From a virus, in the IMG/VR virus record IMGVR_UViG_3300007725_000009, positions 1 to 40,279 of that record: a DNA stretch of 40,279 bases; one strand, 5' to 3'. A program made the translations under genes and the position numbers. Below the pieces are notes generated by a model. That model was not told the DNA's origin. It made no database searches and worked only from the letters and a program-made list of their open reading frames with translations. Of the stretch, positions 315 through 31,969 are shown one piece after another (the stretch's first letter is position 1; each line of letters begins with the position of its first letter).

Positions 315-329
315 CAAAAGGATCCCTGA

Positions 330-384
330 GTCCCCCATGTGTTGGTTGGCGTGAAGAGAAATCTTCCGAGAGGTTGGTGGGGAC
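330..384 (+). other. RNA hairpin domain with GAAA tetraloop
   Basis: The outer helix GTCCCC (330-335) pairs with GGGGAC (379-384). Inside it lies the perfect hairpin GAAGA-GAAA-TCTTC (353-366). That hairpin extends by C350-G368 and G351-C367 with one bulged base. GNRA tetraloops are typical of folded RNAs with tertiary contacts. This is probably the 5' domain of the candidate large RNA. Confidence 0.55.
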
Positions 385-544
385 ACGAGACGAAGATAGA
401 GGTTGGTGTTTTAAAAGGGGTTAATATCCCCAATAGACCTGTGAGTCAACTTCTTATGTCGCAAATGAAGGAACTGAAATCCGTATTGTCGACGGTGGGA
501 CGTTCCGGAAAACAGTCGTTCCGTATGGGTGTGGCCAATCACCC

Positions 545-552
545 TATAAATA
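545..552 (+). promoter_or_regulatory. T4-type late promoter motif TATAAATA inside the RNA region
   Basis: This is an exact match to the T4 late promoter -10 element. Transcription would start near 559. The resulting RNA would cover most of the structured region and could read into the receiver-domain gene at 1321. A chance AT-rich match cannot be excluded, because this 8-mer is expected a few times in 40 kb. Confidence 0.4.
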
Positions 553-831
553 AAGCAGAGTGTAAGCGGTGGGCTTCAAACCCCATTTAAGGAAACAGGT
601 AGACAAATAGCAACACCTCAGTGACATGTTGGCAAGTTAAAGTTAGTCGTAAAACGCCATAGACTATCTACTTAAGATCACTAGGTTGGGATTGGAAGTT
701 GCGATGCTGATGACTCCCATAGGTCAGCACTATATCTCAGGGTCTTAGTTGTTACGATCTCTCAGTTAAAAGCTGTCGTAACGTAAAGCGAAGTCCAATA
801 TGATTAGCTCCTAAGGGTGCCCTGAGGCCAA

Positions 832-934
832 TTTTAGAAAGCAGATTGGGTAAAGCGTGGAAAGTGTGCTAGCCTCCACAGCGAGAAGTACCGATACGGC
901 TTCTCTCAGCCATGGTCCAGTCTGTTTTCTAAAG
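832..934 (+). repeat. RNA module A: 19-bp closing helix with branched interior
   Basis: Positions 833-851 pair continuously with 915-933 (19 base pairs, four of them G-U or U-G). Inside are two hairpins: GTGGA/TCCAC (857-861/875-879), and GAGAAG/CTTCTC (883-888/900-905) with an inner CCG/CGG. The layout suggests a three-way junction with single-stranded AAAGC at the branch. Sequence elements AAAGCAG, GTAAAGCGTGG and CAGTCTGTTTTCTAAA recur in module B at 1230-1307. The downstream helix 931-942/977-988 shares bases with the last pairs of this helix, so the two may exchange. Confidence 0.6.
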
Positions 935-988
935 AGCATCACCCCAGTTAAGTCTGGAGCACATCTGATAAAGTGTGTGGTGCTCTTT
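931..988 (+). other. 12-bp RNA hairpin downstream of module A
   Basis: AAAGAGCATCAC (931-942) pairs with GTGGTGCTCTTT (977-988) over 12 positions with a single U-G pair. The 34-base loop contains an inner CCAG/CTGG stem. The wobble pair again favours the plus strand as the transcript. Confidence 0.55.
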
Positions 989-1193
989 CTAAAGTACATT
1001 GAAAACACAGCAACTAGATCCCCTTACATGGCTGCAGTTTGGGATGGTGTTCTAGGAAAGCGGATCAGTGTACTTTCTAATTCACAGTGATGCTCAAATC
1101 AGGCTCCACTACTCCAGTGTATGGAAGATAGAGAGCCTAAGCCTATCCTGAGAAGAACCTCCTTGTAATTCCTATGTGCACGTAGGTTGATAA

Positions 1194-1227
1194 TACTGGA
1201 TAAGGATCGAAAGGTCGGGAGCCAGTA
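1194..1227 (+). other. RNA hairpin enclosing a second GAAA tetraloop
   Basis: TACTGG (1194-1199) pairs with CCAGTA (1222-1227). Inside, GATC-GAAA-GGTC (1205-1216) forms a short hairpin with one U-G pair and a GAAA loop. It lies just upstream of module B. Confidence 0.5.
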
Positions 1228-1229
1228 AC

Positions 1230-1307
1230 TTTTACAAAGCAGGCTGCGTAAAGCGTGGTAAGGTTCAGCGAGTACGTAGAAGACCACGTACAGTCTGTTT
1301 TCTAAAA
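1230..1307 (+). repeat. RNA module B: diverged copy of module A, next to a start codon
   Basis: Positions 1230-1234 pair with 1303-1307 and 1236-1246 pair with 1291-1301, separated by one C-C mismatch. Compared with module A the helix position is kept while bases change: U846-G920 becomes C1244-G1293, and A845-U921 becomes G1243-U1294. These are compensatory or pairing-neutral changes. Inside is either GTGGT/ACCAC (1255-1259/1283-1287) or GTACGT/ACGTAC (1272-1277/1286-1291); the two are mutually exclusive. The 3' strand ends just before the weak ribosome-binding site (GAGA at 1309-1312) of the receiver-domain gene, so it could act as a 5' leader element. Confidence 0.55.
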
Positions 1308-1320
1308 AGAGAAACCCCTA

Positions 1321-1683
1321 ATGAAAAAGAAAGTCCTAATAGTAGACGACGATTTAACAATCATTAATGTATATAAACGAGTCCTCGCTAAGAACGGGTA
1401 TGAACCAATAGTGATGCGTTCCCCTCGTAAAGCGGACCTTGAAAACATACCTGAAGTCGACATCGCGATAGTCGATATGGTAATGCCTTATGTAAGTGGA
1501 TTTGATTTTGTGTTGTACTTACATGAAAAGAAAATCAATATACCAGTACTGATAGTGTCCGGCGATAAAGGAATCGCCAGGATGGTTACAACTATCAGAA
1601 GGGGTGAACTAACCGATGGTTGGTTGTATAAACCTGTCGCAGGTCACCAACTAATCGCAAAGATTGAGGAAATCCTTTCTTGA
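1321..1683 (+). CDS. stand-alone CheY-like response regulator receiver domain
   Basis: The 120-residue product is a complete REC domain with no output domain. All key residues are present: acidic pocket Asp9-Asp11 in KKVLIVDDD, phosphoacceptor Asp52 in IVDMVMP, Ser80 in VLIVSGD and Lys104 in the YKPV motif. Such proteins take a phosphoryl group from a histidine kinase and bind a partner; CheY, for example, binds the flagellar switch. No kinase gene lies in the window, so any kinase would come from the host. That makes interference with host two-component or chemotaxis signalling a reasonable inference. The ribosome-binding site is weak, and the leader is the structured RNA region, whose module B ends 13 bases before the ATG. 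Confidence 0.85.
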   Translation: MKKKVLIVDDDLTIINVYKRVLAKNGYEPIVMRSPRKADLENIPEVDIAIVDMVMPYVSGFDFVLYLHEKKINIPVLIVSGDKGIARMVTTIRRGELTDGWLYKPVAGHQLIAKIEEILS

Positions 1684-5382: not shown

Positions 5383-5942
5383 GGCACACTCTAGACTTTA
5401 TAATGGCAATTGAAAGGGCTCTTCCCGCTCGTGTGTGCGAATCCCTCATCAAAAAGTTTGAGAAATATTCAGAAGACCAAATCGATAGGGATGAGTCGTA
5501 TTACAAGTTCAAAGAGATAAACCTCCATGAACACGGTGGGTTTGAGGAAGAAATTGAAGTCATCAAGAATAGCGCTGAACATGTATTAAAACATTACAAG
5601 CACGAACTTGGTATAAAGTATTTTCCTAAGGAATTCGACCTAGAACAATTTCGTATGAAGAGGTACGACCCCAACGATGAAGACCAGTTTGACTGGCACG
5701 TTGACGTTGGCGACCGCGCTTCAGCAAAAAGGTTTATGGTGTGTTTGTTCTACTTGAACGATGTTGAGGAAGGCGGTGAAACCGCATTTGATTGGGACAA
5801 TGATGAAGAGAGGGCGGTTGTATCACTTGCCCGTCAAGGCAACGTTGTATTATTCCCGCCATTGTGGATGTACCCCCACAAAGGAACCAAACCTAAGTCT
5901 GGTCCGAAGTACATCCTTTCAACTTACGCACACTACTTATAA
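5379..5942 (+). CDS. 2-oxoglutarate/Fe(II)-dependent oxygenase (prolyl 4-hydroxylase type)
   Basis: The 187-residue product carries the complete iron-binding facial triad: His107 and Asp109 in DWHVDVG, and His167 in YPHKGT, with Lys177 (PKYIL) as the probable 2-oxoglutarate anchor. GGETAF and LFYLNDVEEGG are typical of the prolyl-4-hydroxylase-like subfamily common in marine T4-like phages. Its substrate is unknown; tail or baseplate proteins, or a host protein, are possible. It overlaps the endolysin stop by four bases and ends tail-to-tail with the minus-strand gene, overlapping it by six bases with no visible terminator between them. Confidence 0.85.
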   Translation: MRHTLDFIMAIERALPARVCESLIKKFEKYSEDQIDRDESYYKFKEINLHEHGGFEEEIEVIKNSAEHVLKHYKHELGIKYFPKEFDLEQFRMKRYDPNDEDQFDWHVDVGDRASAKRFMVCLFYLNDVEEGGETAFDWDNDEERAVVSLARQGNVVLFPPLWMYPHKGTKPKSGPKYILSTYAHYL

Positions 5943-14946: not shown

Positions 14947-15387
14947 ATGAGCATTAGAAACTTATCAGACGCTGTTAGTGACAGCAAGTCATCGGTCACG
15001 GGTCTTGTACAAGAATACAAAGACCTCAGCCTCGCATTTAAACTACATCCGGAGTTCGGTGACGTTCGTCCAGTAAAAGACTTGAACGCAATAAAGAATT
15101 CCGTTAAGAACATATTGCTAACCAAAAAAGGCGAACGTCCGTTTAATCCATTACTCGGATGTAACCTTAAGAAGTATTTGTTCGAACCTGCTGACGGCTT
15201 CACGAAGAATGCTATCGAACACGAGATCCGGACATCGATCGGCGAACAAGAACCAAGAGTCAAAATTATTGATTTAATTGTAGCATATAATGCTGACAAA
15301 AACTCTTACGAAATTACAATAACGGTGTCTATTGTCGGTTCGTCACGCGAACTTGACATCGAACTTTACTTAGAGAGATTACGATAA
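14947..15387 (+). CDS. 25: baseplate wedge protein, gp25-like
   Basis: The 146-residue product is the gp25 family, universal in contractile injection systems. It includes F-x-x-H-P-E-F-G-D-V (residues 31-40), the G-E-R-P-F-N-P-L-L-G-C segment, and the E-P-R motif (Glu102-Pro103-Arg104) that pairs with gp6. It ends with the usual ITVSIVGS strand and a basic tail. T4 gp25 (132 aa) links the inner baseplate to the first sheath ring. Its stop touches the gp6 start (TAAATG). Confidence 0.9.
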   Translation: MSIRNLSDAVSDSKSSVTGLVQEYKDLSLAFKLHPEFGDVRPVKDLNAIKNSVKNILLTKKGERPFNPLLGCNLKKYLFEPADGFTKNAIEHEIRTSIGEQEPRVKIIDLIVAYNADKNSYEITITVSIVGSSRELDIELYLERLR

Positions 15388-17229
15388 ATGAGTAACTTAA
15401 CCGACCTATCAAAGCTAGACTTCGATTCCATAAAAACTAAATTAAAGGAATTCATGGAGTCTCAGGACGAGTTCACCGATTACGATTTTGATGGTTCGGG
15501 CTTGTCAGTTATGCTAGACGTGCTTGCTTACAATACGCAATATAATGCTATGTTGGCGCACATCAACTTAAACGAAACCTTTCTGGATACCGCAAAGGTT
15601 CGCTCGAGCGTTGTTTCTCACGCACAACAACTAGGCTACATTCCCAAGTCAAGAACTTCCTCAGAAATATCTGTTGACGTCCACATTCAGGGGAACGAAT
15701 CTTCTAATAGCCCCTTGACAATTAAACGTGGGCAAAAGTTTAGTGGTAAAATAAACAACCAGACATATACTTTTATCACCCTAACGCCATATTCAGCGAT
15801 AAAGGCGACCGATAATTCATTCAAGTTTTCCAACGTTAATTTATACGAAGGTGAATTGAAAAGTATAAGTTATCGAATAGACGGTCTCAATAAGTTCGCG
15901 AAATACGAAATCCCTTCCGATAACGTAGATATGACGACTTTGAGTGTTAAAGTGTTCCCCAACCCAAACACTGAAGAATTCTCTAGTTACACATATTATG
16001 AAGATATAACTGAAATAGGTTCTGATTCGGAAGCTTTCTATTACAGAGAAAACTCATTCGGGCGTTATGAGGTATATTTCGGCGATAATTTCTTAGGCGG
16101 TACACCTCCTTCTGGTGCTGTTGTTAAAATTGAATACGTAGATTGTAATGGTAAAGAAGCTAACAATATCCGAACACTTTCAGCAAACGATTCAATAGAC
16201 GGTGAAAGTTCAATCGTTGTATCTTTGTCAGAAGGGTTTACAAAAACTTTCAATGGCGCAGAACGCGAGAATATTGACTCTATACGTTTCAACGCTCCTA
16301 TAAAATATTCTTCCCAGAACCGAGCAGTTACAGCAGACGATTACCGTTCATTAGTTCTAAACCAGTTTGAGAATATTCAAGACGTTGCTGTTTGGGGTGG
16401 AGAAGATAACGATCCGCCAGCTTACGGTAAAGTCTTTATTGCTCCAGCACTAAAGAACGAAGAGCGTGTCACTTCGGCGTTTATGAATTCAATCAAAAAC
16501 TTTTTGAAGACCAAAAATATAGGCGCGATTACAACTGAAGTAGTTCCTGCTGAATACACCAACCTAGCTATTACAGTTCAATACAAATATGATTTGAACA
16601 AAACTGTAAAAACCGCTGGCGAGTTAAAATCTATTGTATACGACACTATTGTCGCTCATAACGATAAGAACTTGAATAGATTTAATGGGGTTTTGCGTTC
16701 ATCAAACCTACTATGCGATATTGACGATGCTGATCCAGGCATACTCAACTCAATAATTAAACTTAAAATGTTTAAATCGTTTAGACCAAACCCATTAAAA
16801 AATGAAGATTATATTATTACATTCTCCAACCCAATTTACGTTTCTTCTGAAGAAGAATCAACCTTGGAATCTTCTACTTTCTTCTATAACGGAGTTTTGT
16901 GTGCGCTAAAAGACGAACCATTGGTCGGGCAAGAGCCTCTGCGCAATATCTATATGGTAGACACCACCACTGGTTATAAGGTCACTGGCGCAACTTCCAT
17001 AGGTACTGTCAACCCATCCAAAGGTACTGTTACATTAAATAATTTGAAATTTGATTTGTCGAACGAAATAACATTAACAGTCAAGCCAGATTCTTTTGAT
17101 ATCGCCCCTAAATATAAACAGCTAATTCGTATCGTTCCGGCTGAAATAGTTGTCGAAGGTGAATCTGATTCAGTATCTATCCTCGGCTCAACAGGCTTGT
17201 CGGGTTACACTACATTCTCGAGACATTAA
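15388..17229 (+). CDS. 6: baseplate wedge protein, gp6-like
   Basis: The 613-residue product matches T4 gp6 (660 aa), relative of gpJ/P2-type wedge proteins. It opens with a helical N-terminus and the signature D-V-L-A-Y-N-T-Q-Y-N-A-M-L-A-H-I-N (residues about 45-61), then FLDTAKVRSSVVSHAQQLGY. The central R-A-V-T-A-D-D-Y-R-S-L-V (residue about 313 on) and A-V-W-G-G-E-D-N-D-P-P-A-Y-G-K-V segments are classic. Gp6 dimers form the inner iris that opens on contraction. gp25-gp6-gp7 adjacency is as in T4. Confidence 0.9.
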   Translation: MSNLTDLSKLDFDSIKTKLKEFMESQDEFTDYDFDGSGLSVMLDVLAYNTQYNAMLAHINLNETFLDTAKVRSSVVSHAQQLGYIPKSRTSSEISVDVHIQGNESSNSPLTIKRGQKFSGKINNQTYTFITLTPYSAIKATDNSFKFSNVNLYEGELKSISYRIDGLNKFAKYEIPSDNVDMTTLSVKVFPNPNTEEFSSYTYYEDITEIGSDSEAFYYRENSFGRYEVYFGDNFLGGTPPSGAVVKIEYVDCNGKEANNIRTLSANDSIDGESSIVVSLSEGFTKTFNGAERENIDSIRFNAPIKYSSQNRAVTADDYRSLVLNQFENIQDVAVWGGEDNDPPAYGKVFIAPALKNEERVTSAFMNSIKNFLKTKNIGAITTEVVPAEYTNLAITVQYKYDLNKTVKTAGELKSIVYDTIVAHNDKNLNRFNGVLRSSNLLCDIDDADPGILNSIIKLKMFKSFRPNPLKNEDYIITFSNPIYVSSEEESTLESSTFFYNGVLCALKDEPLVGQEPLRNIYMVDTTTGYKVTGATSIGTVNPSKGTVTLNNLKFDLSNEITLTVKPDSFDIAPKYKQLIRIVPAEIVVEGESDSVSILGSTGLSGYTTFSRH

Positions 17230-17231
17230 TA

Positions 17232-20200
17232 ATGGCGAATAAAGAACAAAACCGAGTACCCTCAGTCATACCTGAAGACCTTGTCAATGTTGGCGGGTCT
17301 TTCGTTGAATTCATTAAGAAATATTATGAGTTCTTGAATCAAGATGGAATGCCTTCTGACATAATCAACTCCCCTTCTATACAGAGGGATTTGACGGATG
17401 CCGCTGACAATTTCTTAGATACGGTTCACGGAGAATTTGGTTTTGGATATCCGATCAACAAAGATTCTGATCGTGTAAATATTATTCAAAATATGTCTCG
17501 CATTTACGCGACGAAAGGTTCTCTAGATTCAGTCAAAATGCTTTTCCGAATTATGTTCGGAGAAGAAGTTGAAATTACCCTACCAAAAGATTACATCCTA
17601 AAACCTTCTTCTGGTACATGGCTCAGCGAATATTCAATTATGGCTGACCTAGCCAGCGGAGACCCTTATGAGTTAATCGGTAAATTCGCTGAAGTTGAAA
17701 CTAACTTTCCTGGTTCGCCTCCACAGACTTTTGAGGTTGAGGTAAACCGTGTTGTAAACAAAGGCAACAATACTTACCAAATATTTTTCAACCGCTCGTT
17801 CGTCGGTTTCTTTTATAATGGGAGTATCATCCGTCTCGGCGATGTTAAATTAATCCATAAACCTTCATTGAGTAAAATCCTTTCCATTCAAGATGGGGGT
17901 TCAGGTTTCAGGGTTGGTGAAACGTTTGATGTAGTTTCTTACGAACGTGATAATGCGTACAATGACGTTCTTGGTATCCCTGACATTTACTTGCGAGAGA
18001 AAATAACCAGGAGATCTCGTTGGGGCAGACGTTCGCGCACGTACTATCGCCTAATCCCTGTTGAATATACAAGAGATATAACAAACGAAAGTGTTGATAT
18101 TGACGTTCGTTCTGACGGTACGTTGACTGAACAGATTCAGATTGAAACTCGTTTGGGTACGGTTGAAGTCACTAACATCATTCGCGGTAATGATAAAACC
18201 GTTCGTGTAAAATACCCTAATGGTACAGTCACTGAAGTTAATGAAGAGTTGTCTGGATACTTCAGTTACGTCAAAGTTTTGGACGGAGGTACTGGCTATA
18301 CAGTTCCGCCTGAAATTTCTATAACTGGTGGCGGGAATATAACCACGCCAGCTGAACTTGATTATACGCTTAAAGACGGTTCGTTGGATGAAGTTTTCAT
18401 AGATAACGCTGGCGCAGGTTATAACGATTACCCAGAAGTCACAATAGATGCCCCGTATACAGCTGGCGCTACTGCCAATTCTTTTATCACGGGCGACGCT
18501 GTTACTAGTATTGCTGTTGTTGATGGCGGTTTCGGTTACAAATACCCACCTAATGTGAATATCACAGGGGACGGCATAGGCGCTCGCGCAGAGGCTGTAA
18601 TTAACTCTAGAGGCGTTGTGACGGCAATTAACGTAACTGACGGTGGTAGTGGTTACAGTTCTGCTCCGACTGTTACAATGGCTCTGCCGACCGATCAACA
18701 TAACGCTATCCTAGAGCCTGTTATTGTTGATGGTGAAATCACCAGCGTTGATATTGTATATCCAGGTTACAATTATGACCTTAACAATAGAAGAAGCTAT
18801 CGTGTCACATTCGTCAGAACTAGCGCTGTTACAGGTACAGTCGATGATGGCGTAACTGCTTCCGCTAAGGTGGAGTTCGACCTAAACGGCAGCGTGACCG
18901 CTGTGGTGATGGACACGTTCGGTACAAACTACGCTTCTGCGACCGCAGGCGTTTATATACCAGCACAAAACGTGTCAGGTGGCGTTCGAGCAACTGCTAC
19001 ATTAAACGTTGACCATTCTACTGGTGGTATTGCTTCATTATCTTCTATATCTACTGGATACGGGTACGAAGGCGTAGATGCTATTGAATCGGGTTCTGGT
19101 ACTCCAACCCGAAGAGCTTCTTACAGTGTTGAAATTACTGGCGGTGTAATAAGCGCAGTTGAAGTTGATGAAGCTGGTTCTGGATATCTATACCCTGAAT
19201 TGACAGTAGAAGATTCTGGCGCTAACCCAGGATCGGGTGCTAGAATATACCCAATCTACAAAAACGGTGGGTTAGATGAAATAATTGTATTAAATGGTGG
19301 TACAGGTTATAATGTAGGAAACACTGGCATTGCTGACATCCCAGGATTCACTGTTCAACCTTCACTATTCTTCAGTTACGATTCTAATGGAACAATCACA
19401 AACGTTGAGGTGACTGATCCAGGTTCTGGTTTAGACACCCCTTCTATTTCATTATATGATGGCGCAAGCACGCCTTTAGTAACAGCAGTCGTTTATCCTC
19501 GAGTTTATCTAGGCAGTATTCTCGATGTTGAAATTTCATCTGGAGGTTCAGGTTATTCATGCCCAGAAGCTGTTGTTTCAGGGTTCACAACCGACCCCGC
19601 TTTATTAGATGTAGTCACACTAAACGGATATGTAACAGACGTTGTTATTTCAGATCCTGGGAGCCTATACACCCCAGTAATAACACTAATCTCCGCAAAT
19701 AAAGTCACAGGGACTGATGCTGTAATAGTTCCAGAAACTTCAGGCGGTTCCCTCGTTGGCACTACCATCGTTGAGCGCGGAACCAATTACTCCCCTAGAG
19801 CGGTAATTAGCGTTGGCGGAAATGTTGAAATAAACGAAGTTGCTTCAATCTACCCTGTCGTTTCTTCGGTCGACTCTTCAATAGAATCTGTTGAGGTTGT
19901 TGTACGAGGTCAAGGTTACGACCCAGTTCGAACAACTGTGACTATCGAATCCGACCAAGGTGACGGTGCTGTAATTCAAGCTATCGTTGTTCCTGAAGGT
20001 GGCTCTGTAACCCCTAACTTGGATATCAACTGGGATGCTATTGCAGACGCCTTAACAAGTTTGGCTAATTTTGACCCAACTGGCGAAGGAATAGTTGACA
20101 CAGGGTTTGCGAACGAATTTGCGGTATTCTTAGGAAGCTTAGATACATCGGTAGAACCTCCACGTAGATACGGTGACTTGAATAATAGTGGTAGTGTCAG

Positions 20201-22430
20201 TTCTTCCGATGCGCTTGCCGCCCTCAAAGCATTAGTTGGGCTAACAGTTACTGCGGAAGTTGCGACCAACGTAGCAAAAATACAGGCTGTGTATCCTAAT
20301 GTCGGAGAGTTGTCTCTGGCATTGAGCATCCTTCGACTTGCGGTAGGTCTAGATGACGATACACCGCCAGAACAAATAGTCAACGACTGGGTTACTGGAA
20401 TTCCGGAAGGCGGTGTTTATCAACGTGCTGATATAAGTCAAAGCGGAAATATTGATGCCGACGACCTACAGAAGCTCGCATATTACGCTTATTATGAATA
20501 CGATCAAGCAGGCGTACACACGTTTGATGGGTTCTACTCTCAAGCAGATAAAGATAATATTGAAACGTTTTTGTTAGCTGAAGGTGGACCATTCCAAGAT
20601 TACTTAAACGTGACTGAAGTAGAGTTCACTAACTTAGTTCTTGCTTCACTCCCAGACTTTGAAGATACTTCTTCTGAAAAACTGAAATCGTTCCTACTAC
20701 AAGAAGACGTGGACTTCCCAGGTTTCTGTCGAGGCGACATAAACAACGATGGATTTATCGGCACAGACGATATGATTCTGTTGATGCGTCGAGCTTCAGG
20801 TTTAGAAGTTGAGCCTCAACAATTACGTTGGATCGACGAGACCATTGCCGAACCACTTATCGGTTCGATATGGAACCCATTGCTACAACAAGGTAATGGT
20901 AGCGGAGCGAAAGCTGTTGTCCGTTCAGTCGATGTTAATGGAGCAATAACTAGCCTAGATTTCAACTCTTTTGGTTGGGATTATCCCGAAACGTTTTCTT
21001 CAAGCGTTTCGCCTAAATTACTATCGGGCACCCCAGCAACAATAGCGTACAGTAATGATATTGTAGGTATAACGAACCCAGCTTACGTTGACCGACAAGG
21101 TTTCTTGTCAGATATAGTAAAAATTCATGATAATTTCTATTACCAAGACTATTCTTATGTAATTGATACTTCGGTCGACTTTACTGACTTTGAAGATATT
21201 GTTCTTCGTTCAGTTCATCCGGCTGGTATGAAAGTGTTTGGTCAACAAAGCATAAACGAAAGCATTGACGTTGAAGTTGGTGTCGACGAGGCTTTGGCTT
21301 TCCATTACAACCTGTTGTTCACATACTCCAACCCACTAGAATTGCCTTTAGTTGATGGCGTCGATAGCTACGGTGAAGCAGTATTCTTTGACGATAACAA
21401 TGACGATGAAACCTTTGCTATCTACAAAGATTTAACCCACACATATAATCGTGGGGACAACGTAGACAATATAGTTCAAGACGAAACTTGGTACTTCACC
21501 AAAGACCTCACTAAAGATTCCGGTCGCGGTGATAATGTAGACGACATAGTTCAAGACGAAACTTGGTACTTCACGAAAGACCTGACCAAAGAATCTGGGC
21601 GTGGCGATAATGTAGATGATATCGTTCAAGACGAAACTTGGTACTTCACCAAAGACCTTACACAAGACACTGGGCGTGGTGACGAAGTAGATAACCCTGT
21701 CGACGACGATACATTAATTATCCTTAAGGACTTATCGGAGGCTTCTGGTCGAGGCGACCGTATAGCACCAGAAAGAGTTGTTCAAGACGAAACTTGGGAA
21801 TTTGAGAAAGACCTTACTGAGGCAACCAACAGGGGCGACCGTATTGCCCCAGAAAGAGTTGTTCAAGACGAAACTTGGGAATTTGAGAAAGAACTTACTC
21901 AAGCTACTGGTCGAGGAGACGAAGTAGATAATCCAGTACAAGAAGATTACTGGAGTATGGGTAAAGCCCTTGTTGACCCAGCTGTCCTAGTTCGTGTGGA
22001 AACTCAAACTAATTTCATAACATTCGGATTGAACCCAAGCGCCAATAGGGATTCAAAGGCTGTTACAGGTTCTGTTCTTGGGAAAGACTTCATATTTGCT
22101 GAAGATAAATCAGAATTTATAGATACAATTGATAATAGCAGGTTTGACGATGTCATTGCCTTCTATAGAACTAAACTTCTTGGTCCAGAATTAATAGATC
22201 CTACAAGATTCGTTGATAATGGAACATACAATTTTGTAAATAAACCGCTCGTTTCATCTACTTCAATCCCTGGAAGTGTTGCTGAAATGAGTATAAATAA
22301 ACCATATAGCAGTCCAGCTGTTACGGCAGGAAGTTCTGTCGCTGGCACTAACTCTAGCCCCTATATACAATCAGGCGGATCGTATTTCGAAGATGTATTT
22401 GATTACGCGACCGACTACCAAAACTTTTAA
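17232..22430 (+). CDS. 7: giant baseplate wedge protein, gp7-like, with dockerin-like and tandem repeats
   Basis: The 1732-residue product sits in the gp7 place between gp6 and gp8; T4 gp7 is 1032 residues. Residues 1-125 (IPEDLVNVGGSFVEFIKKYY; IYATKGSLDSVKMLFRIMFG) are the wedge-anchoring part typical of marine phages. Residues about 340-980 are beta repeats of the type V-x-x-G-G-S-G-Y-x-x-P-P-x-V. Residues about 980-1195 contain three dockerin-like calcium loops, GDLNNSGSVSSSD, ADISQSGNIDADD and GDINNDGFIGTDD. From about 1395 to 1575 run 25-27-residue tandem repeats with QDETWYFTKDLT and RGD. The rest is Ser/Asn-rich. The wedge role is inferred from position and N-terminus; the middle probably projects outwards. 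Confidence 0.65.
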   Translation: MANKEQNRVPSVIPEDLVNVGGSFVEFIKKYYEFLNQDGMPSDIINSPSIQRDLTDAADNFLDTVHGEFGFGYPINKDSDRVNIIQNMSRIYATKGSLDSVKMLFRIMFGEEVEITLPKDYILKPSSGTWLSEYSIMADLASGDPYELIGKFAEVETNFPGSPPQTFEVEVNRVVNKGNNTYQIFFNRSFVGFFYNGSIIRLGDVKLIHKPSLSKILSIQDGGSGFRVGETFDVVSYERDNAYNDVLGIPDIYLREKITRRSRWGRRSRTYYRLIPVEYTRDITNESVDIDVRSDGTLTEQIQIETRLGTVEVTNIIRGNDKTVRVKYPNGTVTEVNEELSGYFSYVKVLDGGTGYTVPPEISITGGGNITTPAELDYTLKDGSLDEVFIDNAGAGYNDYPEVTIDAPYTAGATANSFITGDAVTSIAVVDGGFGYKYPPNVNITGDGIGARAEAVINSRGVVTAINVTDGGSGYSSAPTVTMALPTDQHNAILEPVIVDGEITSVDIVYPGYNYDLNNRRSYRVTFVRTSAVTGTVDDGVTASAKVEFDLNGSVTAVVMDTFGTNYASATAGVYIPAQNVSGGVRATATLNVDHSTGGIASLSSISTGYGYEGVDAIESGSGTPTRRASYSVEITGGVISAVEVDEAGSGYLYPELTVEDSGANPGSGARIYPIYKNGGLDEIIVLNGGTGYNVGNTGIADIPGFTVQPSLFFSYDSNGTITNVEVTDPGSGLDTPSISLYDGASTPLVTAVVYPRVYLGSILDVEISSGGSGYSCPEAVVSGFTTDPALLDVVTLNGYVTDVVISDPGSLYTPVITLISANKVTGTDAVIVPETSGGSLVGTTIVERGTNYSPRAVISVGGNVEINEVASIYPVVSSVDSSIESVEVVVRGQGYDPVRTTVTIESDQGDGAVIQAIVVPEGGSVTPNLDINWDAIADALTSLANFDPTGEGIVDTGFANEFAVFLGSLDTSVEPPRRYGDLNNSGSVSSSDALAALKALVGLTVTAEVATNVAKIQAVYPNVGELSLALSILRLAVGLDDDTPPEQIVNDWVTGIPEGGVYQRADISQSGNIDADDLQKLAYYAYYEYDQAGVHTFDGFYSQADKDNIETFLLAEGGPFQDYLNVTEVEFTNLVLASLPDFEDTSSEKLKSFLLQEDVDFPGFCRGDINNDGFIGTDDMILLMRRASGLEVEPQQLRWIDETIAEPLIGSIWNPLLQQGNGSGAKAVVRSVDVNGAITSLDFNSFGWDYPETFSSSVSPKLLSGTPATIAYSNDIVGITNPAYVDRQGFLSDIVKIHDNFYYQDYSYVIDTSVDFTDFEDIVLRSVHPAGMKVFGQQSINESIDVEVGVDEALAFHYNLLFTYSNPLELPLVDGVDSYGEAVFFDDNNDDETFAIYKDLTHTYNRGDNVDNIVQDETWYFTKDLTKDSGRGDNVDDIVQDETWYFTKDLTKESGRGDNVDDIVQDETWYFTKDLTQDTGRGDEVDNPVDDDTLIILKDLSEASGRGDRIAPERVVQDETWEFEKDLTEATNRGDRIAPERVVQDETWEFEKELTQATGRGDEVDNPVQEDYWSMGKALVDPAVLVRVETQTNFITFGLNPSANRDSKAVTGSVLGKDFIFAEDKSEFIDTIDNSRFDDVIAFYRTKLLGPELIDPTRFVDNGTYNFVNKPLVSSTSIPGSVAEMSINKPYSSPAVTAGSSVAGTNSSPYIQSGGSYFEDVFDYATDYQNF
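21440..21950 (+). repeat. tandem DNA repeats (75-81 bp units) in gp7-like gene
   Basis: GTTCAAGACGAAACTTGG recurs at 21474, 21549, 21624, 21780 and 21861: steps of 75, 75, 156 (two units) and 81 bases. Each unit encodes 25-27 residues. The first three share long stretches of nearly identical DNA, which points to recent duplication; the later ones carry the variant R-G-D-R-I-A-P-E-R-V. Confidence 0.85.
22292..22299 (+). promoter_or_regulatory. internal T4-type late promoter motif
   Basis: TATAAATA lies near the end of the gp7-like gene, 150 bases before the gene at 22449. It is a possible secondary late promoter for that gene and gp8. Confidence 0.35.
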
Positions 22431-24673: not shown

Positions 24674-27600
24674 ATGGCAGTAAATTTAGAAGGTGCGCCA
24701 TATTATGACGATTACTTAGAGGATAAACAGTTTTACCGAATTCTGTTTAAACCTGGAGTTTCCGTCCAAGCGCGAGAGCTTACCCAGATGCAAACGATCA
24801 TACAAAAACAGATCGAGCGTCATGGTAGGCATATTTTCAAAGATGGTGCGGCTGTATTAGACGGCACCTTTTCGTATGTAAACAACTTTAATGCGGTAAA
24901 ACTTAATCCCGCAAACGGTTCTTTTATCGTAAACGAATACCTTGATCAACTAGTCGGAAAGACTATTGTTGGTCGAGAAACTGGTATTGTTGCCCGAGTG
25001 ATTACTTACGAAGAGCGCACCGAGACCGACCCACCAACAATATATGTTTCGTATGTCAACGCATCTAAAGACCGTGTAACATCTACATTTGCCGATAACG
25101 AAGAATTATATTCTACAAGCGAAACTACAATCAACGGTATCGCCAAAGGGTTTACTGTAGCGGTCACTGCTACTAATAACGCAAAAGCGGTCGCTTCATC
25201 TGCTGCTATCACCAAAGGCGTTTACTTCGTAAAAGGTCACTTTGTACTAGTAGACGAACAGCGCATTGTAATTTCTAAGTATGACAATAAACCAAACGCA
25301 AGGATTGGTCTAAAGGTCGTAGAGTCTATTGTTACTGCTTCTGAGGACGATAGCCTTCTAGATAATGCTAGTGGTACTCCTAACAACTCTGCTATAGGCG
25401 CAGACCGTTACTCTTTAGATTTGGTGCTAACGCATATTCCTCTGGATTCCACTGATGATGCCGATTTTATCGAACTATCTCGAGTTGTTAATGGTGTCCA
25501 ACAAGCTAAAGCTAAACCAACTGAATATTCAGTACTTGAAGAAAACCTTGCTCGCCGAACTTTCGACGAATCAGGGGATTACATTGTCAAACCATTCTCG
25601 TACAAGATCAGAGAATCTTTGGACGACGGTATTAATGGCGGTGTATATGAAGTGGACCAGACTACTGAAGACGGGAATACGCCTTCGAACGATTTGATGA
25701 CGCTTCAAATCTCTCCAGGTAAAGCGTATGTTCGAGGTTATGAAATCGAAACAGTTGTACCTCGTTTCATTGATATCGAAAAACCTCGAGACACGAAACG
25801 TGTTGATGGCGCAATTTCTACTATGGAAGTCGGCAACTACATTCGAGTCAATAAAGTAGTTGGTATGCCTGATACTGTTGGCGCTTCTTCTGAGATTCAA
25901 GACTACCCAGTCGTGAACCTTTATGACCAACCTGGAGCAACTGGTGAAATAATCGGACAGGCGCGTGTACGTGGCTTTGAATTCGATAGCGGAAACCAAG
26001 CTTCCGACAACGATGTATTCGGCGAAAACGATCAGTTCAAGCTTTTCCTATTTGATGTTAAAATAGGCACTAAACTTGTGATGAACGATTCTCTTGTTGC
26101 ATCGCAGCTTACAGTCGGTTCTTACATTACTGGTGTCACTTCTAGGTCAAGTGGTTATGTCCGCGAGATCGATACTGACAACAACGTTATTTGGGTCAAC
26201 TCAGCCACAGGTAAATTCATTACTGGTACTAATGGCGAGAACATAACTTCAAATAATAGCGCAGAAACTAATAACCTAGTCACAAACTCCGGTTCAACAG
26301 CCTTGAAGATTTCTTCTGCTGTTTACAATACGTTTGAATATGTTAAAAGTTTTTCTCTTTCTGACGCAGAAGACGTTGCTTCAGGCGGTCTTGGTGCTGG
26401 GGCAACAACATTCCAAGCTGATTCTGTACTAGAACGTTCAACTCAAATCTCAGGGTTTGTGTCAACCACGGCTGCTTCGGCAACAATCAACGGCTTCAAT
26501 ACCCTATTTGAGCAAGACCTTCGTGTCGGTGACGCAATTTCTATACCTTCTGGGGCTGGTGGCGTTAATCAGATATTCTATATCTCTCAGATTAATTCTA
26601 ACACCAGTTTGACAATTGATGCCGCAACATCAACTACTACCGAAAACCCAGACGGACTACCAGATGTAAGCGTATCTTCTGTCGCTGCTTATCGCAGACG
26701 TTCAGTACTGAACGACCAAGATAAAAACATCTTGGTTCGCAAACTTGCTACCGATTACATCTCAACGCTTAAACCAGACGGAATCAACGTAAATACAATT
26801 GCGGCTACAGTTCGCGAAGAATTCGTTGAATCTGCTAATGAAGGTAAAATTTCAATAAGCGCGGCAGGTAGATTCTCTGCTGAATCCAACTACAACTACC
26901 AAGTTGTTGTATTAAATCCTGGTGTTGGGGCTTCTGCTTCTGCTGGCGATTATGTTAACATGGAAAATGCTGGTGTGTCAATTACTGGTGCCGATACTGG
27001 TAGCAGCAAAATTGAAATCAATGTACCAGTTAGCATTATCGGTTCTGGTTCTTCTGTACCAGTAAAAGTAATCGCAACTTACACCAAAACCAATGCTGCT
27101 CCGAAATCTAAGAGTGCAGCAATCAATAAACTATTGGTCCGTAACATCTCTGGAGTTGCTGACTATGGTACTAGCACAAACCATAGAGATTGGTCTCTTG
27201 GTACTGCTGACGTTTATAAGTTGTTGGCTGTGTATGATTCTGGTACTGTCGGAACTGCCCCTACTATTCCGAACATCGTATACAACAATTTGTCTGGAAG
27301 TCAGTTCCAGCAAGGCGAGCTCCTTGTAGGTGAAGATTCTGGCGCAGTTGCTATGTACATTGAAAATGTCAATAGTACATTAAGAGTTGTGCCTCAGAGT
27401 AACACCAGATTCGTTGCTGGCGAGTTAGTTACTGCCCAATCGAGCGGTATCACTTTCAACGTCACTTCTTACGAAAAGGGAAGTACTAATATTACTGGCC
27501 AGTTCCTTCTTGACACTGGACAGCGCGATAACATATACGATATAGCAAAACTTGTTAAGAAGAACGTTTCGTTCAAACCTACTGGCGATGTTGTTGTATT

Positions 27601-30600
27601 GTTTAAATCGTTCTCTCATGGTACTGGCGATTTCTTTACTGTCGACTCTTACTTCGGTTCTGTTGATTACTCTGAGATCCCTCAGTATAACTCGACTCGC
27701 GTTGATACCGAAACTCGTGACCCTGACGGTAACTATGACCTAGAATCTTGTGTTGACTTCCGCCCACGTGTTGCTGACGCTATTACTGCGGTGGATGGGA
27801 CTAGCGGATTCAAATACGTAAATGCGCCTTCTTTGGACTTCAATAACCGTAACTTCTCAGGCTTGGGGTCTTCTGTAAGCCTAGTTCCTGCAGATAACTC
27901 AAACTTCTTGTACGATTATGAATACTATTTGCGTAGGAATGATTCAATTTTCTTGACTAAGAAAGGTAAATTCGTCCACGTAAAAGGTATACCAAGCGAA
28001 CAACCTAACCGTCCTCTTGATATAGAGAATGCTATCCGCTTGATTGATATCGACATGGCTCCTTATGCTTCTGATGTTTATAATGAAGTCCTTGTTAAAA
28101 AGACTAGACATAAACGTTATACAATGAAGGATATTAGTCGCCTTGAAGATCGAATCAGCACCCTTGAATATTACACTTCTTTGACTCTACTTGAAAAAGA
28201 CGCTGCTTCTCTACAGGTTAAAGACGCGAACGGTCTAGACCGTTTTAAATCTGGATTTGTAGTTGATAACTTTGCTGGTCATGCGACTGGTGACGTTCTA
28301 GCTCGCGATTACCGCTGTGCTATGGACATGTCTTCTCGAGTTTTGAGACCTAAGTATTCGATGCGAAATATAGCATTGACAGAAAATGATCTTGAAGGAT
28401 CTAACTACAAGGTCACTGGCAATATCGCTACTCTCGATTACGAAAACGTTGTTTCTATAGAACAGGTTTATGCTTCTCGTATTGAAAACCTAAACCCAGT
28501 ATTGAATTTCTCTTGGGCTGGACGAGTTAAATTAGAACCTTCTTCTGACGAATGGTTTGAAATTAACCGCCTACCTGATATTACAATCAACCAGGAAGGT
28601 AACTTCAATACAGTTTTGGCTCAGAACGCGAATGCCCTTGGTACAATCTGGGATGCCCCAACACTACAATGGAGCGGAAATACCACAACATCTTCCACGG
28701 AATGGAGAGAAACACAGTTCGGTAATGGTCCTAACGGTGCGCGTGCCCCACGTCGAATATTGAGAACTACAACTACTACAGAAACTGGTACCGCAACGCG
28801 GACTGGTGTTTCTACTCAGGTAGTGCAGCAGATCGATATTGAGTCTCAAGGCGATGCTCTGTTGTCATCTGAACTTATCCCATACATGCGCTCTCGCGAT
28901 ATCTACTTTGAAGCAAATGGTCTTAAACCGTTCACTCGTGTTTACCCATTCTTCGATAAAGTTAATGTTAGCAATTATGTACAACGTGCTACTGGCGCGT
29001 ATGAACCTATAGATCCTAATGCAGTGAAAGTTGCTACTGTCGGCGATAAGAAGTGGACTAAGATATCTAAAGTCGAGATCTTCTATGACGGTAACAGAAT
29101 TGTTAATACAATATACCTACAATGGAAACAGAACCCAGACGACGATTGGCGTCTGATTGGGCGTGTAGCTTCCGAAAACTCAGGCGGTGTCGCTTCTCCT
29201 AATGGATACAATGTTGCTGCGTTTAATCTGGGAACAGATAGCTATGTAGAACCAAACGAGAACGGGTTGGTCTACTTCCGCGTACTTGTTAACCGTCGTA
29301 ACATGAACATCCCTGCCTCAGACGGCAGCTATGGTGGCGCTTACACTGAGTACCTTTCCGTTCAGTTAAGTGAAATACGTTCTTATGCTGTATTGGAAAA
29401 CCCTGCTGAAGCTGAAGAAGGCACTGATCCAAACTACTACTTGTTGGACAACCCTACTCGCGCTGAAGTTACTTCCACTTTCAATATATCGAAAAAGAGT
29501 TGGGAATGGATCGTACCATGGTACGATAGTTTCATTAGAGGATACCCAGGGGTTTCTAAACTTGCCGACCAGTCTGGTTCAGCTAAAAACTTGTTCGATG
29601 GCGTTGTAAACTATGACTCCAACCGTTCAAATTTATCTGAAGCCTATGCATCTAACTCTAGACATGATATCGTGGTTGAGTGGAAGATGCGCGGTGGCGT
29701 TTCTTCAAGCGGTGCTGCAGAAGAGTTGTTTATATCTCCAGATAATATTTCTCTCGACGATGGCGCACTGGTTACTGACGGTGCCGGTCGAGTTGCTGGT
29801 GTATTCACAATCCCTGACTCTACTATAGCTGGTAATCCTGCGTTCTTGACAGGTGAACGTCTGTTCCGCCTATCTTCATCTCCGACTAATGCCGATGAAG
29901 GTGTTGAAACATTCGCTCAGGCTCCATATACTGCTAAAGGTATTCTGGAAACGCGCCAAGAAACTTTCACAGCCACTCGTAACGGTGTTGTGACAACTAG
30001 GGACGTCAGTGAAACGGTGAACGTTTCTCGAGTAGTTGACAGAACTACTACCCAAATTGGTTGGTGGGACCCTCTAGCTCAGTCAATCATGCCTTCTACT
30101 GAAGGTGGCGAGTTCGTCACTAAGGTTGAAGTATTCTTCCATAGTAAAGACCCTAGCCTACCAGTAACATGTGAACTTCGCGAGATGGTTAATGGTTACC
30201 CAACAACCAAAGTTCTTCCAATGGCGTCTAAGACTCTTACTCCTGATGAAGTATATACTGACCCATTGAAAGGTGAAGTTGGTACGAGTTTCGTATTCGA
30301 TTCTCCGATCTACCTACCTCAGAACGTAGAAGTTGCTATTGTACTTTGGACCGATTCCGACAAATACTTGACTTGGATTAGTCGAATGGGTGATAAGGAT
30401 ACTAATGGTCGTACGATTTCTGAACAGCCTTACCTTGGTGTGTTGTTTAAATCGCAGAACAACTCAACTTGGACTGCTTATGATTATGAAGACCTCAAGT
30501 TTAGAGTATATCGCGCCAAGTTTGATATTTCTCAGCCTGCAACTATTGTCCTAGAAAACGATAGTGATAAAATGGTCGAGCAAATTCGAAACTTTAACCC

Positions 30601-31969
30601 AATATCTCTTACTGCTGGAAGCACTGTGGTGAAAGTTAATCACAGCGACCACGGTATGTACAGCGGTAGCGATTATGTGACGCTCTCTGGCTTGTCTTCT
30701 AACGTAGTTCAACAGATGATCACTGAAATCGACTCAGTATCTTCCGGAGTTTCTTTCTTTGTGGGTGACGCAACTACTGTGACATCTCCTTGGAATGGAA
30801 TGCCAGACCCTACTGATACAGTGACTGAACACTACTTTAAAATATACAATTTGGCTCAGTTTGAAGAACAACCTGAGATTATCAAAGGTACTGTTTCTTT
30901 GGATACTGAACCGACTAGTGGTCAGACTCGCTACAAGATTACAGCTACTCAACGTGGTCTATTCGGGACACTAGCATTAACATTCCCATTGATAGATGTT
31001 AATGGCGACGGTTCTTTGTACGCTGGATCTCCGGTTGAGCTTTATGAATATAATGGAATACCATTGTCAGATATTAATGCGACGCATAAAATTATCGACC
31101 ATGGTCTGGATTATTACACAATTGACATCTCAGACGTTGATTCTTATTCTGGCGCAGTTCCTTCTATCACTGAGAATATCGGTGGCGAAAGGGAAGTGAG
31201 AGCAACGTTTAATGCTATGGCTGACGCTTATCAGTTGATGATACCGATTATCAATTACCCTGAAACTTCTGTTCGCACAGAACTACAGATGGTAACGGCT
31301 ACTTCACCGAGCGGCAATCAGGCGCCATACATAAGCACAGGATACTTTGAAACAACTGTCGGTGATCGTGTTGAGTTCGCTGATCCGCATATGATTGCTT
31401 CGACTACTAACGAAGCTAAATCAGCTGGCGGCAATAAGACGTTCAGAACCCGCATCACTCTTCAATCTACTGTAGATAACTTATCTCCAGTCGTTGACCT
31501 TGAGCGTAAATCTATCACCACGTACTCTAACCGTTTGGATAACATTAAGAGTGCTAATGATGTGTTCCCAGCAGAAAGTTTTGTTGAAGCAACTGAGCCA
31601 GAAGGCGATAGCGGCGAATCTATCTACATTACTAAACGAGTTCAGCTAGAAACTCCAGCAACTTCAATCAAGGTACTTCTTGATATTATTCGAGATGCTT
31701 CTGCTGAAGTTCAAGTTATGTACAAGATTCTACGTTCTGATGACTCTACTGACTTCGATGAAATCGGTTGGACTTACTTCAACGGAACTGGTGGTCCTGA
31801 TAAAAATGTATTGCCAGTAAGCGATCTTTTGACTTACAAAGAATATGAGTTCACAGAAGACGAACTTCCTGAATTTATCTCTTTTGCTGTTAAGATCAAG
31901 ATGAATGGTACTAACTCTGCTCGTCCTCCTCAATTGAAGAATTTACGAGCAATAGCATTGGCGGTATAA
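24674..31969 (+). CDS. giant virion structural protein, DUF4815-type
   Basis: The 2431-residue product begins with the DUF4815 signature seen in T4-like marine phages: PYYDDYLEDKQFYRILFKPG (residues 8-27), VQARELTQMQTII, then R-H-I-F-K-D-G. Such proteins are virion components, probably in the outer baseplate or long fibres, taking the place of T4 gp9/gp10/gp12 or fibre hinge proteins; the exact role is not known to me. Most of the chain is beta-rich with conserved blocks (RYTMKDISRLEDRISTLEYY, residues about 1150-1170, a helical part; WWDPLAQSIMPSTEGGEFVT, about 1798-1818). GGAG at 24660-24663 is the ribosome-binding site. The gene takes up 18% of the window. Confidence 0.8.
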   Translation: MAVNLEGAPYYDDYLEDKQFYRILFKPGVSVQARELTQMQTIIQKQIERHGRHIFKDGAAVLDGTFSYVNNFNAVKLNPANGSFIVNEYLDQLVGKTIVGRETGIVARVITYEERTETDPPTIYVSYVNASKDRVTSTFADNEELYSTSETTINGIAKGFTVAVTATNNAKAVASSAAITKGVYFVKGHFVLVDEQRIVISKYDNKPNARIGLKVVESIVTASEDDSLLDNASGTPNNSAIGADRYSLDLVLTHIPLDSTDDADFIELSRVVNGVQQAKAKPTEYSVLEENLARRTFDESGDYIVKPFSYKIRESLDDGINGGVYEVDQTTEDGNTPSNDLMTLQISPGKAYVRGYEIETVVPRFIDIEKPRDTKRVDGAISTMEVGNYIRVNKVVGMPDTVGASSEIQDYPVVNLYDQPGATGEIIGQARVRGFEFDSGNQASDNDVFGENDQFKLFLFDVKIGTKLVMNDSLVASQLTVGSYITGVTSRSSGYVREIDTDNNVIWVNSATGKFITGTNGENITSNNSAETNNLVTNSGSTALKISSAVYNTFEYVKSFSLSDAEDVASGGLGAGATTFQADSVLERSTQISGFVSTTAASATINGFNTLFEQDLRVGDAISIPSGAGGVNQIFYISQINSNTSLTIDAATSTTTENPDGLPDVSVSSVAAYRRRSVLNDQDKNILVRKLATDYISTLKPDGINVNTIAATVREEFVESANEGKISISAAGRFSAESNYNYQVVVLNPGVGASASAGDYVNMENAGVSITGADTGSSKIEINVPVSIIGSGSSVPVKVIATYTKTNAAPKSKSAAINKLLVRNISGVADYGTSTNHRDWSLGTADVYKLLAVYDSGTVGTAPTIPNIVYNNLSGSQFQQGELLVGEDSGAVAMYIENVNSTLRVVPQSNTRFVAGELVTAQSSGITFNVTSYEKGSTNITGQFLLDTGQRDNIYDIAKLVKKNVSFKPTGDVVVLFKSFSHGTGDFFTVDSYFGSVDYSEIPQYNSTRVDTETRDPDGNYDLESCVDFRPRVADAITAVDGTSGFKYVNAPSLDFNNRNFSGLGSSVSLVPADNSNFLYDYEYYLRRNDSIFLTKKGKFVHVKGIPSEQPNRPLDIENAIRLIDIDMAPYASDVYNEVLVKKTRHKRYTMKDISRLEDRISTLEYYTSLTLLEKDAASLQVKDANGLDRFKSGFVVDNFAGHATGDVLARDYRCAMDMSSRVLRPKYSMRNIALTENDLEGSNYKVTGNIATLDYENVVSIEQVYASRIENLNPVLNFSWAGRVKLEPSSDEWFEINRLPDITINQEGNFNTVLAQNANALGTIWDAPTLQWSGNTTTSSTEWRETQFGNGPNGARAPRRILRTTTTTETGTATRTGVSTQVVQQIDIESQGDALLSSELIPYMRSRDIYFEANGLKPFTRVYPFFDKVNVSNYVQRATGAYEPIDPNAVKVATVGDKKWTKISKVEIFYDGNRIVNTIYLQWKQNPDDDWRLIGRVASENSGGVASPNGYNVAAFNLGTDSYVEPNENGLVYFRVLVNRRNMNIPASDGSYGGAYTEYLSVQLSEIRSYAVLENPAEAEEGTDPNYYLLDNPTRAEVTSTFNISKKSWEWIVPWYDSFIRGYPGVSKLADQSGSAKNLFDGVVNYDSNRSNLSEAYASNSRHDIVVEWKMRGGVSSSGAAEELFISPDNISLDDGALVTDGAGRVAGVFTIPDSTIAGNPAFLTGERLFRLSSSPTNADEGVETFAQAPYTAKGILETRQETFTATRNGVVTTRDVSETVNVSRVVDRTTTQIGWWDPLAQSIMPSTEGGEFVTKVEVFFHSKDPSLPVTCELREMVNGYPTTKVLPMASKTLTPDEVYTDPLKGEVGTSFVFDSPIYLPQNVEVAIVLWTDSDKYLTWISRMGDKDTNGRTISEQPYLGVLFKSQNNSTWTAYDYEDLKFRVYRAKFDISQPATIVLENDSDKMVEQIRNFNPISLTAGSTVVKVNHSDHGMYSGSDYVTLSGLSSNVVQQMITEIDSVSSGVSFFVGDATTVTSPWNGMPDPTDTVTEHYFKIYNLAQFEEQPEIIKGTVSLDTEPTSGQTRYKITATQRGLFGTLALTFPLIDVNGDGSLYAGSPVELYEYNGIPLSDINATHKIIDHGLDYYTIDISDVDSYSGAVPSITENIGGEREVRATFNAMADAYQLMIPIINYPETSVRTELQMVTATSPSGNQAPYISTGYFETTVGDRVEFADPHMIASTTNEAKSAGGNKTFRTRITLQSTVDNLSPVVDLERKSITTYSNRLDNIKSANDVFPAESFVEATEPEGDSGESIYITKRVQLETPATSIKVLLDIIRDASAEVQVMYKILRSDDSTDFDEIGWTYFNGTGGPDKNVLPVSDLLTYKEYEFTEDELPEFISFAVKIKMNGTNSARPPQLKNLRAIALAV

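Follow-up and report, generated by a model that had tools for sequence, protein, structure and literature searches.

A probable array of exchangeable small-RNA modules with an abiF-like core in a marine T4-like virus

The DNA analysed here (the window) is the 40,279-nucleotide IMG/VR virus record IMGVR_UViG_3300007725_000009, and it carries at positions 320–1318 a plus-strand structured non-coding RNA tract of about 1 kb in a marine T4-like virus of bacteria. Very probably, this tract is an array of discrete modules rather than one giant RNA, because the order and content of the modules are shuffled among related phages, promoters and tRNAs occur between them, and single modules stand alone. 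Homology and covariation link the tract to its relatives; two relatives carry a consensus abiF motif, and the window has what seems to be an abiF-like core in permuted form. The resemblance to an antitoxin RNA suggests that RNAs of this kind may help the phage against the defences of its host. The best overall explanation, to which we give about even confidence, is that exchangeable small-RNA modules are strung into a polycistronic array, some of them possibly acting as antitoxin or decoy RNAs.

The window was assigned to T4-like myoviruses from its genes for a gp59-type loader, gp32 and gp6-type baseplate proteins; the nearest annotated relatives of its gp32 show ~55–57% identity (cyanophages, phage C48C1 and Methylophilales phage Melnitz). 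Over the stretch compared, it is identical to part of a 59.6-kb IMG/VR contig, IMGVR_UViG_3300026125_000003. The tract occupies the approximately 1 kb between a small ORF and a response-regulator gene (1321–1683, plus strand) that bounds the tract and lies outside it. This downstream gene encodes a stand-alone receiver domain (PF00072, E = 1.5e-13), here found in a T4-like phage immediately 3′ of an RNA tract, and a search for it gave a match in the window's own contig only. No defence toxin was found among eight scanned neighbour genes. Two very long ORFs are located at 17232–22430 (1732 aa) and 24674–31969 (2431 aa).

No credible gene lies within 320–1318, in line with the initial annotation, which saw no gene with a ribosome-binding site; the ORFs there are short and mechanical. 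The helices named in it are indeed present, namely 832–851/915–934 (20 pairs), 931–942/977–988, 991–1002/1065–1076 and 1230–1246/1291–1307, and the small helices 497–502/517–522 and 1205–1208/1213–1216 (GAAA loop) are evident from the sequence itself. The fifteen or more complementary segment pairs taken as a signal are not above chance in number, stems of at least 8 pairs amounting to 7 in the tract and 7.0 ± 1.4 in shuffles. Folding energy of the whole tract (z = −2.0 on the plus and −2.9 on the minus strand) provides neither strong support nor a strand direction, because z is modest on both strands. Real structure is visible only from a few long stems, the exceptional ones being 832/934, 931/988, 991/1076 and 1230/1307, and, above all, from conservation and covariation in relatives. 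The plus-strand direction proposed earlier is confirmed by a basal-stem position at which 13 of 23 homologous beads have U·G, which would be C·A on the other strand, and by the homologues being encoded on the strand that also carries their tRNAs. Neither a tRNA nor a promoter-like site was found within the window's own tract.

All of the modules in the window are on the plus strand. Module H, the 5′ domain (313–592), contains helices 330–336/377–384, 398–406/446–454, 527–531/540–544 and others, and pieces of it are 76–84% identical at 15235–15464 of a related contig, L015. A consensus of these sequences (n = 2 sequences only) has 13 compensated pairs, e.g., GUCCCC/GGGGAC versus GCUCUC/GAGAGC. 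The segment TGTTGGTTGG of this module (341–350) is also found at ~222–231 of locus L133, where it immediately follows a promoter-like TAATAC box that precedes a different gene. Module M3 (628–672), a short hairpin GUUGGCAAGUUAAAGUUAGUC...GACUAUCUACU with 84% identity to L015 15598–15642, is followed by a window-specific stretch (680–830; helices 735–743/819–827 and 750–758/775–783), for which no homologue was found. Bead module A (832–934) has a 20-pair basal stem and the core GUAAAGCGUGGAAAGUGU.CUAG.CUCCAC.GCGA...CUCAGCCAYGGUC; its relatives are two blocks in L004 (2613–2662, 94%; 2732–2759, 93%) and L015 16613–16714 (77% over 102 nt). Bead module G (931–988) forms a three-way junction with the core CCAGUUAAGUCUGGA....AUCUGAUAAAG, and the bead at 991–1076 has its own core on a 12-pair basal stem, AAAGUACAUUGA/UCAGUGUACUUU. 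Next are the abiF-like module C (1077–1229), in which GAUGCUCAAAUC at 1089–1100 and a downstream CCUAAGC appear to form a permuted version of the abiF internal loop, and module A′ (1230–1307), which repeats module A in shortened form with 16 of 17 stem pairs formed and 85% identity over 33 nt (to 832–864) and 81% over 31 nt (to 915–945). The tandem repeats of one unit with a toxin gene that mark type III toxin-antitoxin systems are not seen in the tract, which has only the two diverged copies of module A.

Homologous tracts, gathered by pattern search and among the neighbours of gp52 and gp59, are present in no fewer than four further contigs of marine T4-like phages, L004, L015, L135 and L138 (a small set, n = 4, with three from one metagenome study, 3300045135). 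The tract follows gp52 and a tRNA in L004 and tRNA-Asn in L135, lies ahead of five tRNAs in L138, and in L015, where it is 1.8 kb long, has tRNA-Cys inside and tRNA-Met at its end; its position relative to gp52 and gp59 varies among phages. Pieces common to the tracts share 70–94% identity, and their order differs: H-M3-x-A-G-bead-C-A′ in the window (x, the window-specific stretch), H-promoter-M3-bead-tRNACys-beads-E-B-bead-A-D-C-tRNAMet in L015, tRNA-B-A-D-E in L004, tRNAAsn-C1(abiF)-F-bead-E-B-C2 in L135 and D-E-C-promoter-F-beads-five tRNAs in L138. For example, E comes after B-A-D in L004 but before B and A-D in L015, while C precedes F in both L138 and L135, the latter having a second C at its end. 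Between phages, then, domains change place, go missing or are present twice, and tRNAs and promoters lie among them. The promoter between H and M3 in L015 matches at 10 of 12 positions, and a sigma-70-like promoter between C and F in L138 at 12 of 12; promoter-like matches of this kind are common by chance, and 12/12 occurs nowhere else among the matches listed. Furthermore, modules stand alone elsewhere: C in L035, G in Roseobacter podophage CRP-143 and in permuted tmRNAs, and E in Vibrio and Enterobacter phages and contig L145. The homologues show many indels between them and no conserved frame. Near and distant blastn searches of phages with the window tract gave nothing at 1e-5, and at E 10 only CRP-143 plus chance Listeria matches.

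Twenty-odd hairpins across the tracts, here called beads, have a near-constant basal stem, UUUAGAA...UUCUAAA, with exchangeable cores. The stem follows the pattern UUUAGAA-AG.ACAYU / AGUGU.CUUUCUAAA; pairing is kept in almost all beads, with compensatory types at most variable positions, a count that is only descriptive because the arms were aligned by hand. When 1.65 Mb of loci was scanned, basal stems of at least 13 pairs were confined to the tracts and to the surroundings of module G in the contigs with tmRNA described below, the longest stem elsewhere having 12 pairs. Beads occur directly 3′ of tRNA CCA ends in L004 and L015. As far as the literature searched and Rfam show, a constant-stem bead with exchangeable cores is undescribed. 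The L004 bead array begins directly after a tRNA-Arg-like gene (2466–2527) that has a CCA end and is missing its 5′ acceptor strand, Rfam covering positions 10–63 of 71 only. One bead core in L015 (15697–15849) includes three tRNA T-arm-like hairpins, GGTTCGATTCC, GGTTCGAGTCC and GGTTCAAATCC, and no complete tRNA; as a speculation, this would suggest tRNA mimicry, possibly against tRNA-cutting defences.

Module C gives the best candidate for a function. At L135 3655–3624 (minus strand), the abiF consensus (RF03085) is matched at 32 of 32 aligned positions (45.4 bits, gathering threshold 37), and an abiF element of 45.4 bits is found in L035 in a stand-alone RNA of ~215 nt after tRNA-Pro, whose end is a T-run with a promoter-like TTGACA...TATAAT behind it (read by eye). 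Both module C counterparts begin with this consensus motif, and their 3′ part is common to module C of the window, L015, L138 and the second copy of L135. In the window this 3′ part reads GAAGAACC..UUGUAA..GUGCACG..GAUAAU..GAUAAGGAU; module C matches L138 with 76% identity over 70 nt (E = 9e-10) and L015 over 67 nt. In all four of these module C copies, the 5′ part contains GAUGCUCAAAUC and, after a hairpin, ..A-AGC, the strands of the abiF loop in exchanged order. In the window the loop is GAUGCUCAAAUC-A-GGCUC...GAGCC-UA-AGC, so that of the abiF loop GCU-CAAAUC-G / C-A-AGC the exact GAUGCUCAAAUC is present, but permuted and with UA replacing A. Across the loci searched, both strands included, the exact 12-mer GATGCTCAAATC has three occurrences, in the abiF RNAs of L035 and L135 and in module C of the window. 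The latter thus looks like a circularly permuted abiF core, a reading based on the 12-nt match and 3+5 pairs, looser versions of which occur elsewhere by chance. The Rfam abiF model gave no match in the window at E ≤ 10 and none in G000, and homology of module C to the L135 and L035 RNAs is firm only in the 3′ part, because strand order differs in the abiF part. Like abiF RNA, the antitoxin of AbiF/Abi_2 HEPN toxins, the window's module keeps GAUGCUCAAAUC and AGC/GCU plus a stem that pair like the internal loop; it differs in being apparently permuted and below Rfam detection, and in its extra 3′ domain. We judge it somewhat probable that module C derives from abiF RNA or imitates it.

In C. 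difficile, abiF RNA neutralises AbiF by direct binding (PMC12373285). Phage abiF RNA was reported in cyanophage S-CREM1, with no mechanism proposed there (PMC9964418), and none is proposed in a 2025 review. AbiF RNAs are also found in phages Acj61, S-SZBM1 and CRP-143; because the complete genomes of these and of S-CREM1 have no Abi_2 gene (PF07751), abiF RNA in the four phages is not part of a toxin-antitoxin pair. In total, the Abi_2 toxin gene is absent from 13 phage records including the window, another difference from the bacterial system. A search with the long abiF-type RNA of L035 gave only two partial, abiF-length matches in plasmids and none in E. coli, so a bacterial RNA sharing its 3′ domain could not be demonstrated. 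AbiF-like motifs were also seen in unannotated stretches of many mycobacteriophages and of Aeromonas T7-like, Arthrobacter and Salicola phages.

Module G has a different distribution. Its core, CAGUUAAGUCUGGA....AUCUGAUAAAG (window 931–988), was found in seven further IMG/VR contigs, in CRP-143 (L146) and in one Rhodobacteraceae bin whose flanks equal those of a phage contig (L147 = L152). Both the IMG/VR contigs and the bin have this core inside a permuted tmRNA, where the acceptor piece with its CCA end stands on one side and the 5′ end of the coding piece on the other; tmRNA_permuted is called by Rfam in L147, L148, L149, L150, L151 and L154, ARAGORN calls a permuted tmRNA in L148, L150, L151, L153 and L154, and the context in L152 was judged from its identity with L147. 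The intervening hairpin of the two-piece tmRNA (RF04321) is module G in seven marine phage contigs, whereas the window's 59.6-kb contig has no RF04321 match that would place tmRNA pieces around its own module G. Among six distinct sequences, 7 of 22 stem pairs are changed on both sides, a value reached in 0 of 500 shuffles (slid controls, 0–2), and a 28-nt core is conserved while the stem varies. A covariance model of module G found nothing further on the modelled strand in 1.38 Mb. Near the permuted tmRNA of L147, a second bead, AAAGCACACTGG...CCAGTGTGCTTCTGAT, is located at 5498–5568 after another CGCCTCCACCA. A possible parallel to module G, a glutamine riboswitch within Melnitz's permuted tmRNA, was rejected because the riboswitch is located 3′ of the tmRNA.

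How might such an array work? At least seven separately folding small-RNA modules would be strung together, many of them beads with exchangeable cores, in arrays that sit among tRNAs of marine T4-like phages and are probably shuffled by recombination. The tract would most likely be transcribed together with its neighbours and may then be processed into several discrete RNAs. Module C may bind host RNA-gated toxins (such as the HEPN RNase AbiF) as their own antitoxin does and keep an AbiF-type toxin silent during infection, and other modules would perhaps act likewise; we know of no AbiF-bearing host for the window's phage. Most known anti-defence genes of phages encode proteins, and RNA antitoxin mimics are known from few cases. 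An analogy for module C is the pseudo-ToxI of phage PhiTE against ToxIN (PMC3475682), where too a non-coding RNA from a phage would imitate the RNA antitoxin of a bacterium, although that RNA consists of tandem repeats of one 36-nt unit, whereas the window array combines different modules with a putative function. The cores of A, B, D, E, F, G and H matched no known antitoxin, and the decoy idea leaves the recurrent place of module G inside permuted tmRNA unexplained. Counter-defence as the main use of the array is possible, with our confidence somewhat short of even. A more general picture, an RNA cassette system in which a constant basal stem would accept antitoxin-like, tRNA-like and other cores, with arrays recombining as a counter-defence island and lodging in loops such as that of permuted tmRNA, is more doubtful.

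The initial annotation took the tract for one giant ornate RNA, a member or analogue of GOLLD and ROOL or a new class of this kind. A single folding unit, perhaps multimeric, with the modules as domains would fit the size of ~1 kb, the T4-like phage, the relatives' tracts near tRNAs and the window tract free of internal promoter-like sites; GOLLD and ROOL are likewise large structured RNA tracts borne by phages in the vicinity of tRNA islands, and tRNAs may be contained in the linkers of GOLLD (PMC12286853). However, the Rfam search, which covered GOLLD, ROOL, OLE, HEARO and group I/II introns, gave no match to the tract either at gathering score or at E ≤ 10, leaving membership in GOLLD/ROOL unsupported. 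Where these have one conserved global secondary structure, domain order, number and content differ across the five tracts, relatives' tracts contain tRNAs and promoters, and single domains occur alone in other phages, so that one giant RNA is quite improbable. What stands of the earlier proposal is a structured phage RNA, supported by homologues and many compensated base pairs: indels and absent covariation had been named as signs against it, and covariation within domains is clear, whereas global architecture is not conserved. The same covariation refutes in practice a decayed coding sequence with chance stems. Although the stem count equals that of shuffles, the compensated pairs reach a value seen in 0/500 shuffles, and the many indels and the lack of a conserved frame among homologues leave this reading practically negligible.

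Alternatively, the beads may be hairpins that act in the processing of tRNA/tmRNA-type transcripts or as spacers within them, or else small mobile hairpins that insert into loops of non-coding RNAs, with cores that processing nucleases recognise and that have no other role. Module G separating the CCA end from the 5′ piece in permuted tmRNA and the L004 and L015 beads directly after CCA ends speak for it, but a 28-nt core conserved despite a varying stem is needless in a spacer, the window tract has no tRNA, and modules C, D, E and H are not beads; we regard this as rather unlikely. Very improbable is a long cis-regulatory leader of the response-regulator gene at 1321. The tract ends 14 nt upstream of the start codon, and aptamer-like manA, wcaG and glutamine RNAs occur in T4-like phages (PMC2864571, PMC9964418), but in relatives the corresponding modules precede unrelated genes or tRNAs in variable order.

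A layout close to a modular array is the tRNA/ncRNA cluster of the T4-like S-CREM1 (PMC9964418), in which wcaG, manA and abiF are similarly interleaved among tRNAs; its modules are Rfam families, unlike those of the window, and constant-stem beads are not reported for it. If the array does act in this counter-defence role, RNA counter-defences could be sought in the non-coding stretches that lie among the tRNAs of phages, and each core would be a lead to an RNA-binding host target. For large structured phage tracts in general, module order should be checked in relatives before one giant RNA is called.

Together with module G, motif E is a short, deeply conserved and unnamed RNA motif. It reads CCWGUAACAWGGUCRAGUCCGUGACGGUAA and is found in L004, L015, L135 and L138, being absent from the window, and also in non-coding tracts of Vibrio phages, Enterobacter phage MY742 and contig L145. 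Searched as an exact pattern, it was absent from 84,980 species genomes of bacteria and archaea; two further pattern matches, L134 and L136, were rejected as chance matches in GC-rich coding sequence. Conservation of the sequence is strongly supported, and its structure weakly, because just one pair is compensated. In Vibrio phage 1.012.O (L141 1938–2032), a 19-position stem around a tRNA-like T-arm adjoins a tRNA-Tyr-like gene and motif E. In Vibrio phage 1.193.O (L142 2155–3440), motif E lies in 1.3 kb without annotated genes after tRNAs, and the related phages 1.063.O and 1.187.O, which have motif E matches too, could supply covariation.
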